Assembly: GCA_937941095.1 (NCBI GenBank)
Contig: CALDYJ010000108.1
Location: forward strand, 1-64,000
Source: an uncultured Saprospiraceae bacterium
GTDB taxonomy: Bacteria; Bacteroidota; Bacteroidia; Chitinophagales; Saprospiraceae
DNA: 64,000 nucleotides
Reading direction: 5' to 3'
Part shown: piece after piece, positions 31,972-47,231 of the stretch
Layout of the letters: each line of letters begins with the position of its first letter
Numbering within the stretch: the first letter of the stretch is position 1
Translations under genes and position numbers: made by a program
The notes under the pieces: model-generated
What the model was told of the DNA's origin: nothing
Seen by the model: the letters and a program-made list of their open reading frames with translations, nothing else
Database searches by the model: none

Positions 31972-33051
31972 TTACTTCCCTGCTTTTACAGGCTTACCCG
32001 CTTCTTCTGCATTATCAGAAGGCATATCTTCTGCATTTTCTCTTTGACCGACACCTGTTATTTTTTGCTTAATCAAGCCTTCAACTTCTTTTGCGAGCTC
32101 AGGGTTGTCTAAGAAAAACTGTTTCGCTGCTTCTCTTCCTTGAGCAATTTTTGCTCCTCCATAGCTATACCAGGATCCACTTTTTTGCACGATCTCGTGC
32201 TCAACACCTATGTCTACTGTTTCGCCAGCTTTGGAAATTCCTTCTCCGTACATTATATCAAACTCTGCAATTCTAAATGGTGGCGCAAGTTTGTTTTTGA
32301 CAACTTTGACCTTCACATGATTGCCCATTACATTCCCTTCTTTGTCTTTTATTGCTGCTCCTGATCTTCTTATGTCTAATCTGATGGATGCATAAAACTT
32401 TAAAGCATTTCCTCCGGTAGTTGTTTCTGGATTACCGAACATTACCCCAATCTTTTCTCTTAGCTGATTGATGAACACACAACAACATCCAGTCTTTCCA
32501 ATCGCTCCAGTAAGTTTTCTCATGGCTTGAGACATCAGTCTAGCTTGGAGTCCCATTTTAGAATCTCCCATTTCTCCTTCTATCTCTGCTCTTGGAACTA
32601 ATGCTGCTACAGAATCAATTACGATGATGTCAATTGCACTCGACCTGATTAAATTTTCTGCAATTTCTAAAGCTTGTTCTCCATTGTCAGGCTGAGAAAT
32701 CAATAAATTTTCTGTGTCTACTCCTAATGCTTCAGCGTAAGAACGGTCAAATGCGTGTTCTGCATCTATGAACGCTGCTATACCTCCTTGTTTCTGGCAA
32801 GAAGCAATCGCGTGAATAGCGAGAGTTGTTTTACCAGAAGATTCTGGTCCATAAATTTCTATGACCCTCCCTCTAGGTAAGCCATTTATTCCTAAGGCTA
32901 TATCTAAGCCTAAAGAGCCTGTTGAAATAGATTCAACATCGATGATTTTTTTATCACCTAATTTCATTACAACACCTTTTCCGTAAGACTTTTCTAGCCT
33001 ATCTACGGTAAGCTTAAGTGCTTTTAGCTTTTCGTCTCTTTCTTTTGACAT
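31972..33051 (-). CDS. recA: Recombinase RecA
   Basis: This 359-residue protein is the strand-exchange ATPase. The Walker A motif GPESSGKTT, Walker [13 protein letters not shown], the MAW-like [14 protein letters not shown] region and [21 protein letters not shown] are present at family positions. The C-terminal tail is short and mixed in charge. It has its own promoter at 33112-33142 and a leader of about 55 bases. No LexA-type operator was recognised. Confidence 0.97.
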
Positions 33052-33111
33052 GAACTTTTAGTTTAATTTGATTTAAGATTTAGTTTTCAAACTTTTTGTT
33101 TTATATATACA

Positions 33112-33142
33112 CAAATATAAATAATTTGTTTCCTAATTCAAA
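33112..33142 (-). promoter_or_regulatory. Promoter of recA
   Basis: On the minus strand, TTTG (33139-33142), a 19-base spacer and TATATTTG (33112-33119) form a full Bacteroidota promoter 61 bases before the recA start. Confidence 0.7.
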
Positions 33143-33181
33143 TTAAATTTGTTACTAATGTTTAATTTTCTTACTTGACAT

Positions 33182-35471: not shown

Positions 35472-35937
35472 CCTTAGTTATTAACATTGAAATGGTGAAT
35501 TAGTGTTTGTTTACCTTAGGTTTATCAACACTAATTTAAGTGTAATCAAATAACGAATGCTTATCCCCAGCTAAAAAGCAGGTAATGTTAATAAATTTGA
35601 GTTAAAGAGCTGTTAGTTTAGACTCAATAAGAAGAATAGATACTAACGTTGACTTATCAACACTCCTAAATGTTAAAATGTTGATAAATGGATTAGTTTT
35701 TTGACAATCAGTGTTTTAGTTGCACAATAGCTGTGTGGATAACTAGGGGTGCCCATGTTAGTAACTACAATCCAAACCTATTTGCCTCTTAATTTTCCAC
35801 TTACTAACACCACTGATGATGATGATAGATATTTATTTTTTAAAAAATCATAGTCATTATAGATATGACAGAAATGTGAATAAACTAAATAAACAAAATT
35901 TCAAAAAAATTATTACCATGTTGTAAATTGACATCAA
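35472..35937. other. oriC: Candidate chromosomal replication origin (DnaA-box cluster)
   Basis: This 466-base stretch lies between divergent dtd and ctaA. It has TTATCAACA at 35522-35530 and 35654-35662 on the plus strand and at 35679-35687 on the minus strand, the perfect DnaA box TTATCCACA at 35734-35742 (minus), and weaker matches TTATCCCCA (35561-35569) and TTATTAACA (35478-35486). A very AT-rich tract at about 35825-35870 could be the unwinding element. Two parS-like sites lie 4.3-4.7 kb away. The dnaA gene is not in the window, as is common when the origin and dnaA are separated. Confidence 0.6.
35654..35687. repeat. Inverted pair of DnaA-like boxes, intergenic copy
   Basis: TTATCAACACT on the left and its near mirror ATGTTGATAA on the right bracket an AT-rich core containing AATGTTA. 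A very similar 33-base unit lies at 36836-36868 inside ctaA. Confidence 0.6.
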
Positions 35938-37008
35938 ATGAAAAAGACTGAAAACGAGATTAATAAGCAAGTCAGGATTTGGCTCTTCATTGGAGTCGTC
36001 TTAGTATTCGTTCAAGTCATCATTGGAGGTGTTACAAGATTAACAGATTCGGGTTTGTCGATTACAGAGTGGGAAGTAATAGCCGGCACTTTACCTCCTC
36101 TCAATGAAAGTGATTGGAATGTAGCATTTGACAAATACAAAGTTTCAGCCTCAAAACAATTTGAAGCGCTTCATGCTGACATGAGCCTAAGCGATTTTAA
36201 GTTTATTTATTTTTGGGAATGGTTTCATCGTTTGTGGGCGAGAATGATGGGCTTTATTTTTGCTATCCCTTTCGTATATTTTTTAATTAAAAAATTCTTG
36301 CCTTCTTGGCTTTTAGCTAGACTTGGAGTTGTCATCTTACTTGCTGCCTCGGTTGCTGTCTTTGGATGGGTAATGGTTGCTAGTGGATTAAATGACGATA
36401 AGCGGACTTGGGTTAGTGCTTATAAATTATTGACGCATTTAATGTTGGCTACTTTTCTTTTCGGTTATTTATTTTGGACATGGTTGAAAGCAAGTTATCC
36501 TGAAAAAGCGCATAAGAGTAATTCTTCAATATTGAAAATTTCTTCTTGGATTATTATAGTCCTATTACTTCAAATTGCTTTTGGGGCATTAATGGCAGGA
36601 ATGAGAGCTGGACTCATCCATCCATATTTTCCAATGTTTATAAAGTTTGATTTATTGATCTCAAGTCTTTCACCGAGTGATGGTGGAGTTGCAGAAAACT
36701 TAATCAATTATGAAGAAGGAATTTTCATGAAAGGAGTAGTGCAAATATTACATAGAATTACAGCTTATTTGCTTAGTGGACTTATAATATGGGAATTTTT
36801 TAAAATTAAGAGGATTGGCGGCTCAGGACTACAAGTTATCAACACTACAATGTTAGTAATGTTGATAAGTCAGTTTACACTCGGAGTTTTGACCATTATA
36901 AATTGTTTTGGTAAGGTTCCATTACTTTATGGTGTGCTGCATCAAGCAGGAGCACTCATTCTTTTCGCGATTGTTTTAACTATGAACTATAAACTACGAA
37001 GGGTTTAA
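35938..37008 (+). CDS. ctaA: Heme A synthase (COX15/CtaA)
   Basis: This 356-residue, eight-helix membrane enzyme converts haem O to haem A for cytochrome oxidase. The N-terminal GGVTRLTDSGLSITEW, the haem-ligand histidines in WEWFHRLWAR, LLTHLML, LHRITAY and LHQAGAL, and the duplicated four-helix layout fit the long COX15-type family. It stands alone, without ctaB or oxidase genes. Its 3' end contains two DnaA-box-like sequences arranged as in the adjacent candidate origin. Confidence 0.93.
   Translation: MKKTENEINKQVRIWLFIGVVLVFVQVIIGGVTRLTDSGLSITEWEVIAGTLPPLNESDWNVAFDKYKVSASKQFEALHADMSLSDFKFIYFWEWFHRLWARMMGFIFAIPFVYFLIKKFLPSWLLARLGVVILLAASVAVFGWVMVASGLNDDKRTWVSAYKLLTHLMLATFLFGYLFWTWLKASYPEKAHKSNSSILKISSWIIIVLLLQIAFGALMAGMRAGLIHPYFPMFIKFDLLISSLSPSDGGVAENLINYEEGIFMKGVVQILHRITAYLLSGLIIWEFFKIKRIGGSGLQVINTTMLVMLISQFTLGVLTIINCFGKVPLLYGVLHQAGALILFAIVLTMNYKLRRV
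36836..36868. repeat. Inverted pair of DnaA-like boxes inside ctaA
   Basis: TTATCAACA (36836-36844) and its reverse complement (36860-36868) enclose an AATGTTAGTA-containing core. The 33-base unit closely resembles the one at 35654-35687. It encodes VINTTMLVMLI of CtaA in the coding frame. Confidence 0.55.
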
Positions 37009-40189: not shown

Positions 40190-40223
40190 AAAAAGGATTG
40201 TTCCACGTGGAACAATCCTTTTT
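40190..40223 (-). terminator. Terminator-like 34-base palindrome after thrC
   Basis: A perfect palindrome with arms AAAAAGGATTGTTCCAC and its complement lies 20 bases after the thrC stop. The minus-strand RNA would form a hairpin followed by five U, so it can end the thr operon transcript. Its centre is a complete parS-like sequence. Confidence 0.6.
40199..40214. promoter_or_regulatory. parS: parS-like ParB-binding site 1
   Basis: TGTTCCACGTGGAACA is a perfect 16-base palindrome fitting the broadly conserved parS consensus TGTTNCACGTGNAACA. It lies between thrC and the M1 peptidase, 4.3 kb from the candidate origin. Confidence 0.8.
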
Positions 40224-40242: not shown

Positions 40243-41553
40243 CTAATAATGATTCATTAACCAAGACTTAAAAGCGTCAAAATCTTTGGTTAGGAATTCG
40301 GCTGATTTCCTTTTATCAAGAAGGGTAGCAAGTTTATCTGGGATATGGATTTTTTTATCAAGAATAGTCTCAACAGCATCAATGAATTTAGCTGGGTGTG
40401 CAGTTTCTAATATAACACCTTGGCAGTCTTCATTGTATATTTGGTATTGACGATAAGCTAAATATGCGACTGCACCATGAGGGTCTATGGTGTAATCATA
40501 CCTTGAGTCTACTTCTTTAATTGCCGCTTTGGTATAACTGTCATTAAATCTTAAGCCAACGATGTGGTTTCTCATATTGTTCCACGTGGAACCATTTCCT
40601 GAGAATATGTTTTTTAATCTTCTAAAATTTGAAGGATCACCTACGTCCATCGCGTTAGATAAGGTCGCAACAGAAGGCTTCGAGGTATATTCTCCAGAAT
40701 CCAAGTATTGAGGAATAACGTCGTTCAAATTTGTAGCAGCAATAAATTTGTCAATCGGCAAGCCCATCATTTTTGCGAAAACTCCTGCTGTTAAGTTTCC
40801 AAAATTTCCACTTGGTATAGAAAAAACAACCTTTCTTTCTTTCGAAGGGAGCTGCTTAAAAGCTTCGAAGTAGTAAAAAGATTGGGGAATAAGTCTAGCT
40901 ATGTTTATAGAATTAGCTGAACTAAGCCTTAAATGATTGTTGACATCACTATCTAAAAATGCCTTTTTTACCAATGCTTGGCAATCATCAAAAGTCCCTT
41001 CAATCTCGAGTGCCGTAATGTTGTTTCCTAAAGTAGTGAGTTGCTTTTCTTGTATATCACTTACTTTGCCACTAGGGTATAAAATAATTACTTCAACGCC
41101 AGGAGTATTGTAAAAGCCTGAAGCAACGGCACCTCCAGTATCTCCTGAGGTAGCAACTAAGATGCTTAATCGCTTTGTTTCACCTTCATTAAAGTAAGCC
41201 ATTAGTTGAGACATGAATCGAGCGCCAAAATCCTTGAAAGCCATCGAAGGCCCATGAAACAATTCAAGGAGATGAGTATGATCATCAAAAGAAACAATAG
41301 GGGCAGGAAAATTAACCGAACGATCTATAATTTCAGAGAGCTTGTTTTCTGGAATGTATCCGTCAAAAAGATTTAAACATATTTGATATGAAAGTTCTTT
41401 GAAACTCAATCGATCTAAATCTTTATAAAAGGATTTAGATAGCTTAGGAATCGAAACAGGCATGTATAATCCATTGTCCTCTGGCAAGGATTTCATGACA
41501 GCTTGCTTTAAAGAAACAAGATTGTTTTTATTGTTTGTGCTATATAGTTTCAT
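40243..41553 (-). CDS. thrC: Threonine synthase
   Basis: This 436-residue PLP enzyme converts O-phosphohomoserine to threonine. The PLP lysine is in HGPSMAFKDFGARFM, the phosphate-binding loop in VATSGDTGGAVASGF, and the C-terminal domain has SGNFGNLTAG. It is the last gene of thrA-thrB-thrC, with its start overlapping the thrB stop by one base. A parS-like site lies within its coding sequence. Confidence 0.95.
   Translation of the reverse strand: MKLYSTNNKNNLVSLKQAVMKSLPEDNGLYMPVSIPKLSKSFYKDLDRLSFKELSYQICLNLFDGYIPENKLSEIIDRSVNFPAPIVSFDDHTHLLELFHGPSMAFKDFGARFMSQLMAYFNEGETKRLSILVATSGDTGGAVASGFYNTPGVEVIILYPSGKVSDIQEKQLTTLGNNITALEIEGTFDDCQALVKKAFLDSDVNNHLRLSSANSINIARLIPQSFYYFEAFKQLPSKERKVVFSIPSGNFGNLTAGVFAKMMGLPIDKFIAATNLNDVIPQYLDSGEYTSKPSVATLSNAMDVGDPSNFRRLKNIFSGNGSTWNNMRNHIVGLRFNDSYTKAAIKEVDSRYDYTIDPHGAVAYLAYRQYQIYNEDCQGVILETAHPAKFIDAVETILDKKIHIPDKLATLLDKRKSAEFLTKDFDAFKSWLMNHY
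40578..40593. promoter_or_regulatory. parS: parS-like ParB-binding site 2 (within thrC)
   Basis: TGTTCCACGTGGAACC matches site 1 except for the last base. It lies within thrC, where it encodes GSTWNN on the minus strand. Two such sites 364 bases apart fit a ParB loading zone. Confidence 0.75.
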
Positions 41554-45280: not shown

Positions 45281-45892
45281 TCACATAGAATCATCAAAGA
45301 AAACAGGCGGACAGACGAAAATATATTTGACAACTAGCTTTAAAGTGTAACCTCCCCCAGAGCCAGAAACCCAAACAATGTCATAATGAACTGCTTGCAT
45401 TCTTCTTCCATTACATAGAGGGCTATGGGATGAAGCGAAGTTCATTATGTTAGTTGCAATAGCTTCTTGGTCTGCAACACTAAATACATCGTCATTCAAA
45501 CATTCAAAGGGCCATCCAAAAATAAAATTAAAATAAACCTCATCAGCATTTCCAAAATCGCTTGTTTGAGTTGAACATTCTACATCACAATCCGGAGCTG
45601 TCGTTGGTAATGAATAAGGACAATTTAAAAATCGTTCTATTAGCCCCTCATCATTTGGCCCAGCTCCATATAATTGATCAAGCATAAGATTAAAAAGGGT
45701 TGCACATGAAAAACTCTCTAATATATCATCACAAGGATCACCAGGGCCTAATGAGCTAATGGCTATCACCTCATTATTTATGGATTCATTTGTTGATTTT
45801 GGGGTGAAGTCCGATCTATCGTCGACTGTACATGAATAAATTAAGCACAAAGAAAAGGATAAAAAGAGTGTAAATTTTTTATATGGAATCAT
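45281..45892 (-). CDS. Cys-rich lipoprotein, array member 4
   Basis: This 203-residue protein has a lipoprotein signal (LIYSC). Not assigned to any known family. It shares with the three upstream neighbours the order GPGDPCDDI, LYG, GLIERFLNCP, TTAPDCDVEC, a Cys before DDVFSVADQEAI, and PLCNGRRMQAVHYDIVW, then a Cys near the end. It ends in DDSM, as members 2 and 3 end in DSM. The protein is probably anchored in the outer membrane, with disulfides. It is last in a four-gene same-strand run with 27-42 base gaps. Confidence 0.7.
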   Translation of the reverse strand: MIPYKKFTLFLSFSLCLIYSCTVDDRSDFTPKSTNESINNEVIAISSLGPGDPCDDILESFSCATLFNLMLDQLYGAGPNDEGLIERFLNCPYSLPTTAPDCDVECSTQTSDFGNADEVYFNFIFGWPFECLNDDVFSVADQEAIATNIMNFASSHSPLCNGRRMQAVHYDIVWVSGSGGGYTLKLVVKYIFVCPPVFFDDSM

Positions 45893-45934
45893 GATTGAAA
45901 ATTTTTAAAGATTCGGAATAAAAACATAATCGAT

Positions 45935-46585
45935 TTACATAGAATCTCCAATGTCAGGAGAAGGTAATGGAGTAGGGCCTGGACAAGGCATTCTATAAGC
46001 AATGCTCAAATCTAGCCTCGCGCATTCATCATCATGATGTACAATGTAATAATCAAATCCAATGTTGTAATGGACAGGCACCATTTTTACTTCACCACAA
46101 TAAGGAGCATTATCAACTGCAAATTGAACGACTTGGTCGATTACCTCTTGTTGTTCAGCAGCTGAAAATACACCATCACCACAAGGAAAATCTCCATCGG
46201 GACAATAGACATGAAATAAGCGATCAGCATCAAAGTAGTTTACGTATTGTGTTCCACAATCATTTGGACAAGCTTGAGTAACGACATTTGTTGGGCAGTT
46301 AATGACGTCTTCTATTAAGCCAGATTGGTTACTTAAAAAATCGCCAAACATTGCATTAAGATAATCTCTGTCTTCACCAGTACAAGTGAAGTCTTCAGGT
46401 TTAGGACAAGGATCTCCTGGTCCTGGACCAAATGAAACTTCATCATCAATGCTTGGCAAAGGAATAGATATAGAACTGTAAATTTGATTTTCTTTTACTT
46501 GAATCAAGTTCTCTTCATTTGAACAAGAATAAACAAGGAGCAAAGAAAAAAATAAAATGAAAGTAAGTTTACCATAGGTTATCAT
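45935..46585 (-). CDS. Cys-rich lipoprotein, array member 3
   Basis: This 216-residue protein has a lipobox (LVYSC) and the shared scaffold GPGDPC, FTC, MFGDF, GLIEDVINCP, ACPNDC, a Cys before GDGVFSAAEQQEVID, YCGEVKMVPVHYNIGF and a late Cys pair. It has a short Pro-rich end, then GDSM. Function unknown. The conserved EQ...FA...P.C...M..V.Y.I core shows it is a paralogue of its neighbours, although sequence between the motifs has diverged considerably. Confidence 0.7.
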   Translation of the reverse strand: MITYGKLTFILFFSLLLVYSCSNEENLIQVKENQIYSSISIPLPSIDDEVSFGPGPGDPCPKPEDFTCTGEDRDYLNAMFGDFLSNQSGLIEDVINCPTNVVTQACPNDCGTQYVNYFDADRLFHVYCPDGDFPCGDGVFSAAEQQEVIDQVVQFAVDNAPYCGEVKMVPVHYNIGFDYYIVHHDDECARLDLSIAYRMPCPGPTPLPSPDIGDSM

Positions 46586-46622: not shown

Positions 46623-47231
46623 TTACATGGAGTCATCATCATTAGGTAATGGTATGGGGAAAAGACAGTTTTCGATGTATTTTATTTCAAAACTTAATTG
46701 CACACATCCGAAGTTGGTCCAAGAAATATTATAGCTTACAGGAATCATTTTACGGCCATTACACTCTGGAGCAAATCGATGAGCGAAACCAATGATGTGC
46801 TCTGCAAAAGCTTCTTGCTCTGAAACAGAAACTACTCCATCATCACAAGGCCAAAAATTTTCACAAAAGGAATAAAATAGAATTTCGGTGTCACCAAAAT
46901 CTTCTGTAACAGGATCACAAGTTCTTTCACACCCAGCTGTAGTAGGCTGAGCGTACGGACAATTTAAAAATGCCTCTAAGCTTCCTTGCTCATTATTGAG
47001 CGCTTGATTGAATCCAGTTCCTCCTCCAAACAGTTGCTCGAAAGTTTCTGAAAGCTCGCTTCCACAAGGAATGTCTTTTAAGATGTCGTCACATGGATCA
47101 TTTGGTCCTAAAGAAGCTACATCTTGAGCTGTCTCAATGGATGAAGATTCAAAATCATTTAGGTGATCCATTTTATGGATGCAAGAACTGAAAGCAAAAA
47201 AAATGACTGAAAATAAAATGTACTTATTCAT
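46623..47231 (-). CDS. Cys-rich lipoprotein, array member 2
   Basis: This 202-residue protein has a lipobox (AFSSC). The shared scaffold reads GPNDPCDDI, IPCG, LFGGG, SLEAFLNCPYAQPTTAGC, then CDDGVVSVSEQEAF and PECNGRKMIPVSYNISW. It ends DDDSM. Function unknown. It is more similar to member 4 in several motifs (DPCDDI, NCPY, CNGR), suggesting that these two derive from a later duplication. Confidence 0.7.
   Translation of the reverse strand: MNKYILFSVIFFAFSSCIHKMDHLNDFESSSIETAQDVASLGPNDPCDDILKDIPCGSELSETFEQLFGGGTGFNQALNNEQGSLEAFLNCPYAQPTTAGCERTCDPVTEDFGDTEILFYSFCENFWPCDDGVVSVSEQEAFAEHIIGFAHRFAPECNGRKMIPVSYNISWTNFGCVQLSFEIKYIENCLFPIPLPNDDDSM

Follow-up and report, generated by a model that had tools for sequence, protein, structure and literature searches.

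A candidate replication origin between dtd and ctaA in a Saprospiraceae genome, with DnaA boxes inside the ctaA gene

The gap between dtd and ctaA described here is very probably the oriC, the site where a Saprospiraceae bacterium begins to replicate its chromosome. The first-pass annotation of this DNA had proposed an origin at the same place, an interpretation now supported by the densest cluster of strict DnaA boxes in the assembly, an exact pair of parS sites, skew minima in two relatives and a conserved sequence module at 67 of 71 loci. Boxes, module, AT-rich tract, parS sites, conservation across the family, a skew switch in relatives and an excess of boxes in ctaA can all be read from the sequence. 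The candidate passes all sequence-based tests for an oriC that were feasible, the skew being ambiguous in one relative (G020) and the minimum of its own contig lying off the gap. The open-access literature that we searched yielded no description of a Saprospiraceae oriC.

Results

A local cluster of DnaA boxes

We analysed bases 1–64000 (the window) of a 69,987-bp contig (C108) from a fragmented, 86% complete MAG whose 199 contigs total 4.26 Mb. The nearest named relatives of its ctaA come from Saprospiraceae MAGs. The gap is flanked by dtd, the gene for D-Tyr-tRNA deacylase, and on the opposite side by ctaA, and contains the following boxes.

35472–35937, no strand: intergenic gap of 466 bp between dtd (minus strand) and ctaA (plus strand); proposed half of oriC that would bear the DNA unwinding element
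35478–35486, plus strand: weak DnaA box TTATTAACA
35522–35530, plus strand: DnaA box TTATCAACA
35561–35569, plus strand: weak DnaA box TTATCCCCA
35586–35594, minus strand: weak DnaA box TTATTAACA
35654–35662, plus strand: DnaA box TTATCAACA, forming an inverted pair with the box at 35679
35679–35687, minus strand: DnaA box TTATCAACA, forming an inverted pair with the box at 35654
35734–35742, minus strand: consensus DnaA box TTATCCACA
35875–35883, minus strand: weak DnaA box TTATTCACA

The three TTATCAACA sites, the perfect TTATCCACA and the two weaker boxes that had been reported earlier are all present, spanning 265 bp from 35478 to 35742; the weak boxes at 35561 and 35875 are additional. 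Under the strict pattern TTATC[CA]ACA the gap holds four boxes, whereas Markov sequence with the gap's dinucleotide composition averages 0.03, and none of 20,000 such simulations reached four. Seven loose boxes compare with 0.1 expected, and none of 200 simulated 64-kb windows exceeded two loose boxes per 466 bp. A scan for one-mismatch boxes across the entire window found no enrichment (81 versus 84.5 expected); the signal is therefore a local cluster. No loose-box cluster of comparable size occurs elsewhere in the 64 kb.

The same holds for the genome. The first-pass annotation had seen no comparable cluster by eye and had suggested counting boxes per 500 bases. When all 195 strict sites of the 4.26-Mb assembly were listed, the gap was indeed their densest cluster, with four, and no second 500-bp stretch held as many, the runner-up having three.

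The three strict boxes of this runner-up lie within 66 bp at G000:C47:34788-34853, just upstream of nrdB/nrdA (ribonucleotide reductase). The nrd promoter of E. coli is under DnaA control, and this stretch is likely a DnaA-controlled nrd promoter in the present Bacteroidota genome. As a rival origin cluster it is accounted for as the region preceding nrdB/nrdA.

A conserved module beside AT-rich DNA

Comparison of the regions upstream of ctaA revealed a conserved element that the first-pass list lacked, as it did the boxes inside ctaA. It lies between the boxes of that first-pass list and an AT-rich tract, and is the likely unwinding site.

35793–35828, plus strand: conserved candidate unwinding module, 36 bp, ungapped
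35793–35801, plus strand: module box1, TTTTCCACT, with two mismatches
35801–35809, plus strand: degenerate module box2, TTACTAACA, overlapping box1 and followed by a CCA spacer
35813–35827, plus strand: module triplets CTG ATG ATG ATG ATA (other strand, 3'-GAC TAC TAC TAC TAT-5')
35816–35937, no strand: AT-rich tract (81% AT) overlapping the module triplets; candidate DNA unwinding element

A 36-position profile finds the module in 67/71 Saprospiraceae loci, upstream of ctaA and on the same strand as that gene, mostly at a distance of 75–410 bp, and scores the copy in the window at 42.9 bits, the best of 298 null chunks reaching 6.4. Training the profile on these very regions, 19 of the 71 having been selected for carrying the core or a core variant, somewhat inflates both the score and the fraction; the separation from controls is large despite this inflation. 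Four Saprospiraceae-like ctaA loci (L093, L120, L122 and L126) have no module; these may have an origin that has moved or a different copy of ctaA.

The consensus opens with box1, TTATC[CT]ACA, at positions 1–9, and continues with a degenerate box2 at positions 9–17 that reads A[AT]A[CT]TAACA or takes a form such as TTTCCACA. Three C/G-rich bases, CT[AG] ATG ATG A and AT-rich DNA follow. All 66 rows of the profile share ACA at 15–17, T at 22 and A at 24. Read on the opposite strand, the consensus triplets are 3'-GA(T/C) TAC TAC-5', each with a central A; repeated 3'-GAT-5' trios are absent from the module, only the first triplet coming near. The window's copy runs TTTTCCACT TACTAACACCA CTG ATG ATG ATG ATA over 35793–35827, with an 11-bp spacer after box1.

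The exact core of the module has one match in its own genome. Among 30 loci with the core pattern that we inspected, the 21 with ctaA carry the core upstream of that gene, and the other nine are without box or AT-rich tract. Across Bacteroidia the core pattern occurs at 32 places, versus about eight for a reversed control, and in the 20 of these loci that were read, box and AT-rich context were found only in the two from Saprospiraceae. In G082, a complete relative, the exact core-pattern match is a chance match without boxes, and the true module sits at ctaA, with CTAATAATAATAAGG. It is ctaA and not dtd that is the conserved neighbour: module and AT-rich tract remain in relatives where dtd is not adjacent.

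The arrangement recalls the basal unwinding system (BUS) of Bacillus subtilis oriC and its relatives, in which box, spacer and NAN triplets follow one another (PMC8287927). Expressed as a rule (a DnaA box with at most two mismatches, a spacer of at most 16 bp and at least three NAN triplets), this order is found in the window as TTTTCCACT with two mismatches, a spacer of 11 and five triplets. Alone the rule lacks specificity: 12 sites in the 64-kb window have at least five triplets. The evidence for the module is its conservation.

A very AT-rich tract beside the boxes had also been claimed. At 81% AT, 35816–35937 bears this out, only 0.12% of 120-bp windows being as AT-rich, and relatives too are AT-rich at the corresponding place. 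The most AT-rich 100-bp stretch of the whole window (85% AT) is found just upstream of recA, within 33031–33150, and is richer than this tract.

DnaA boxes within ctaA

Further DnaA boxes lie inside the coding sequence of ctaA itself.

35938–37008, plus strand: ctaA, COX15/CtaA haem A synthase (PF02628, E=7e-74); proposed spacer gene of a split origin
36836–36844, plus strand: DnaA box TTATCAACA inside ctaA, in codons for VINT
36860–36868, minus strand: DnaA box TTATCAACA inside ctaA, in codons for MLI

In a profile of box density around ctaA at 38 named loci, density is 2.5/kb at −500 to −250 versus 0.04/kb in the far background, drops almost to zero in the first 500 bases of ctaA and rises to a second peak of about 1/kb at +500 to +1250, partly inside the gene. 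In the window this second region consists of only the two boxes inside ctaA. The 56 distinct Saprospiraceae ctaA genes together contain 44 strict boxes, whereas synonymous codon shuffling within each gene predicts 4.9 and gave a maximum of 13 in 2000 trials, a nine-fold excess. Just 3/44 fall in the first 500 nt, and 27/56 genes have no box at all. The boxes recur at few codon sites, for example MLI and VDN, and the 44 are not independent events since the genes are kin; site and strand differ between genera. The reversed box pattern does not occur in the 56 genes, and no DnaA box was found in 22 Flavobacteriaceae ctaA genes, whose proteins are related. Coding constraint as the cause of the boxes is thus ruled out by the synonymous shuffling and the Flavobacteriaceae control.

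These boxes suggest a split origin with ctaA in the spacer place that is usual for dnaA, which in this genome lies on another contig (G000:C199:6489-6974). That the origin is split by ctaA is probable. We give an even chance to the further proposal that the codons of this haem A synthase gene hold the second half, dnaA's place having been taken, and that initiation constrains the choice of synonymous codons. A working second half is a proposal, and a role in regulation or titration is about as likely. The boxes could act in titration or regulation, as datA or DARS do, or could merely be tolerated near oriC, either of which is compatible with an origin in the gap; to this reading, which accords with the variation in number and position between genera and with the 27 genes that have none, we assign a little under an even chance, given that the boxes stand nine-fold above synonymous shuffles and are concentrated in the 3' part of the gene and just after it, with almost none in its first 500 nt.

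parS sites and GC skew

The sites near the gap that had been called parS-like are stronger than claimed: both are exact.

40199–40214, no strand: parS TGTTCCACGTGGAACA, between an M1 peptidase gene and thrC
40578–40593, no strand: parS TGTTCCACGTGGAACC, within thrC

The pattern GTTNCACGTGNAAC has just two matches in the entire assembly, at 40200 and 40579 of the window's contig, and this pair 4.3–4.7 kb from the gap constitutes the assembly's sole exact parS sites. The exact parS core is present in 27/41 genomes of relatives, usually once or twice in each, and in many of them parS and ctaA share a contig. Phage records gave no match. Elsewhere in the window, at 45281–46585, neighbouring genes on the minus strand, each of about 200 aa, specify two similar lipoprotein-like products with a common GPGDPC motif, a probable tandem duplication.

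Cumulative GC skew, which had been put forward as a check on the origin, agrees with the gap in part. The contig itself is too short and noisy for skew analysis and has a shallow minimum at 47,065, 11 kb from the gap. We therefore turned to relatives. G082 is complete in one contig of 7,507,556 bp and was sampled coarsely (eighty 20-kb samples) and finely (contiguous sequence from 2.23 to 2.47 Mb). Its skew is mostly negative up to 2.28 Mb, is mostly positive once 2.35 Mb is reached and switches back near 5.9 Mb, and the sampled minimum falls between 2.26 and 2.35 Mb. The fine minimum, at 2,349,196, is 463 bp upstream of ctaA (2,347,714–2,348,733, minus strand), with parS 15 kb away. Its dnaA is at G082:C1:427-912, 2.35 Mb from the skew minimum; the record begins at dnaA, and hence its base 1 is not the origin. 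In G022, over a 200-kb stretch, the minimum lies 173 bp upstream of ctaA. The minimum in G020, within 200 kb, is 76 kb from ctaA and does not fit. This displacement possibly reflects rearrangement, for instance a recent inversion. At L307 (G020:C49:300000-319999), dtd, ctaA, the module and three parS sites occur together. Skew thus supports the locus in one complete genome and one partial one, the third being ambiguous.

An origin in the neighbourhood and not in the gap, for example nearer parS or at the 47-kb minimum of the window, would accommodate both that minimum and the 76-kb shift in G020, but is very unlikely given that the fine minima of both G082 and G022 are less than 0.5 kb upstream of ctaA, that box cluster and module are both inside the gap and that the window has no other loose-box cluster of comparable size. 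Also very unlikely is that the boxes serve DnaA as a transcriptional regulator at the dtd and ctaA promoters with the origin elsewhere: DnaA boxes do occur at promoters, and the second-best cluster of this genome precedes nrdB/nrdA, similar to the E. coli nrd promoter, yet the skew switches at the ctaA locus in G082 and again in G022, the only exact parS pair of the assembly is beside the gap, module and AT-rich tract are kept where dtd is not a neighbour, and boxes are also found inside and after ctaA.

Discussion

For an origin in the dtd/ctaA gap, what is known of DnaA lets us infer binding, unwinding, initiation and looping between two parts. DnaA would bind the box array at 35478–35742 and the tandem pair at 35793–35809, and the pair would guide it onto one strand of the triplets at 35813–35827. 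DnaA would then open the AT-rich tract at 35816–35937, where the helicase would be loaded and from which two forks would leave; ParB on the parS sites 4.3–4.7 kb away would subsequently separate the new origins. A second DnaA-binding part would be formed by the boxes towards the 3' end of ctaA and, in many relatives, by others immediately behind the gene.

The module provides a sequence signature by which the origin could be located in most Saprospiraceae genomes, and growth rates could then be estimated from read depth. Its triplet pattern broadens the range of DnaA-trio sequences available for testing. Moreover, the boxes in ctaA permit a clean test, in which the gene is recoded synonymously and replication initiation is followed.

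The proposed origin shares features with several known systems. As in the continuous oriC of E. coli, boxes in both orientations are clustered beside an AT-rich tract, and the origin does not adjoin dnaA. The oriC of E. coli is GATC-rich, whereas the gap has no GATC.

The module resembles the BUS in the order of its parts: one DnaA box or a pair, next triplets whose central A is on the strand opposite TTATCCACA, and finally AT-rich DNA. Its 11-bp spacer from box1 in the window is within the reported peak of 10–13 bp (PMC8287927). It differs in that box2 is degenerate and overlaps box1 by one base, and in that its triplets are 3'-GA(T/C) TAC TAC-5' and not repeated 3'-GAT-5'; unlike in B. subtilis, dnaA is elsewhere in the Saprospiraceae genome. 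The strand relation is the same as that of the Clostridioides difficile trio 5'-CACCTACTACTATTACTACTATGA-3' (PMC7561715).

In split origins elsewhere the spacer gene is usually dnaA (PMC4285127). As in B. subtilis, Helicobacter pylori and C. difficile, whose origins are bipartite, the proposed origin would have two box regions with one gene between them and an unwinding element in one of the two parts (PMC4285127, PMC7561715). Unlike in those origins, the spacer would be ctaA in place of the usual dnaA, with many boxes of the second part inside its coding sequence.
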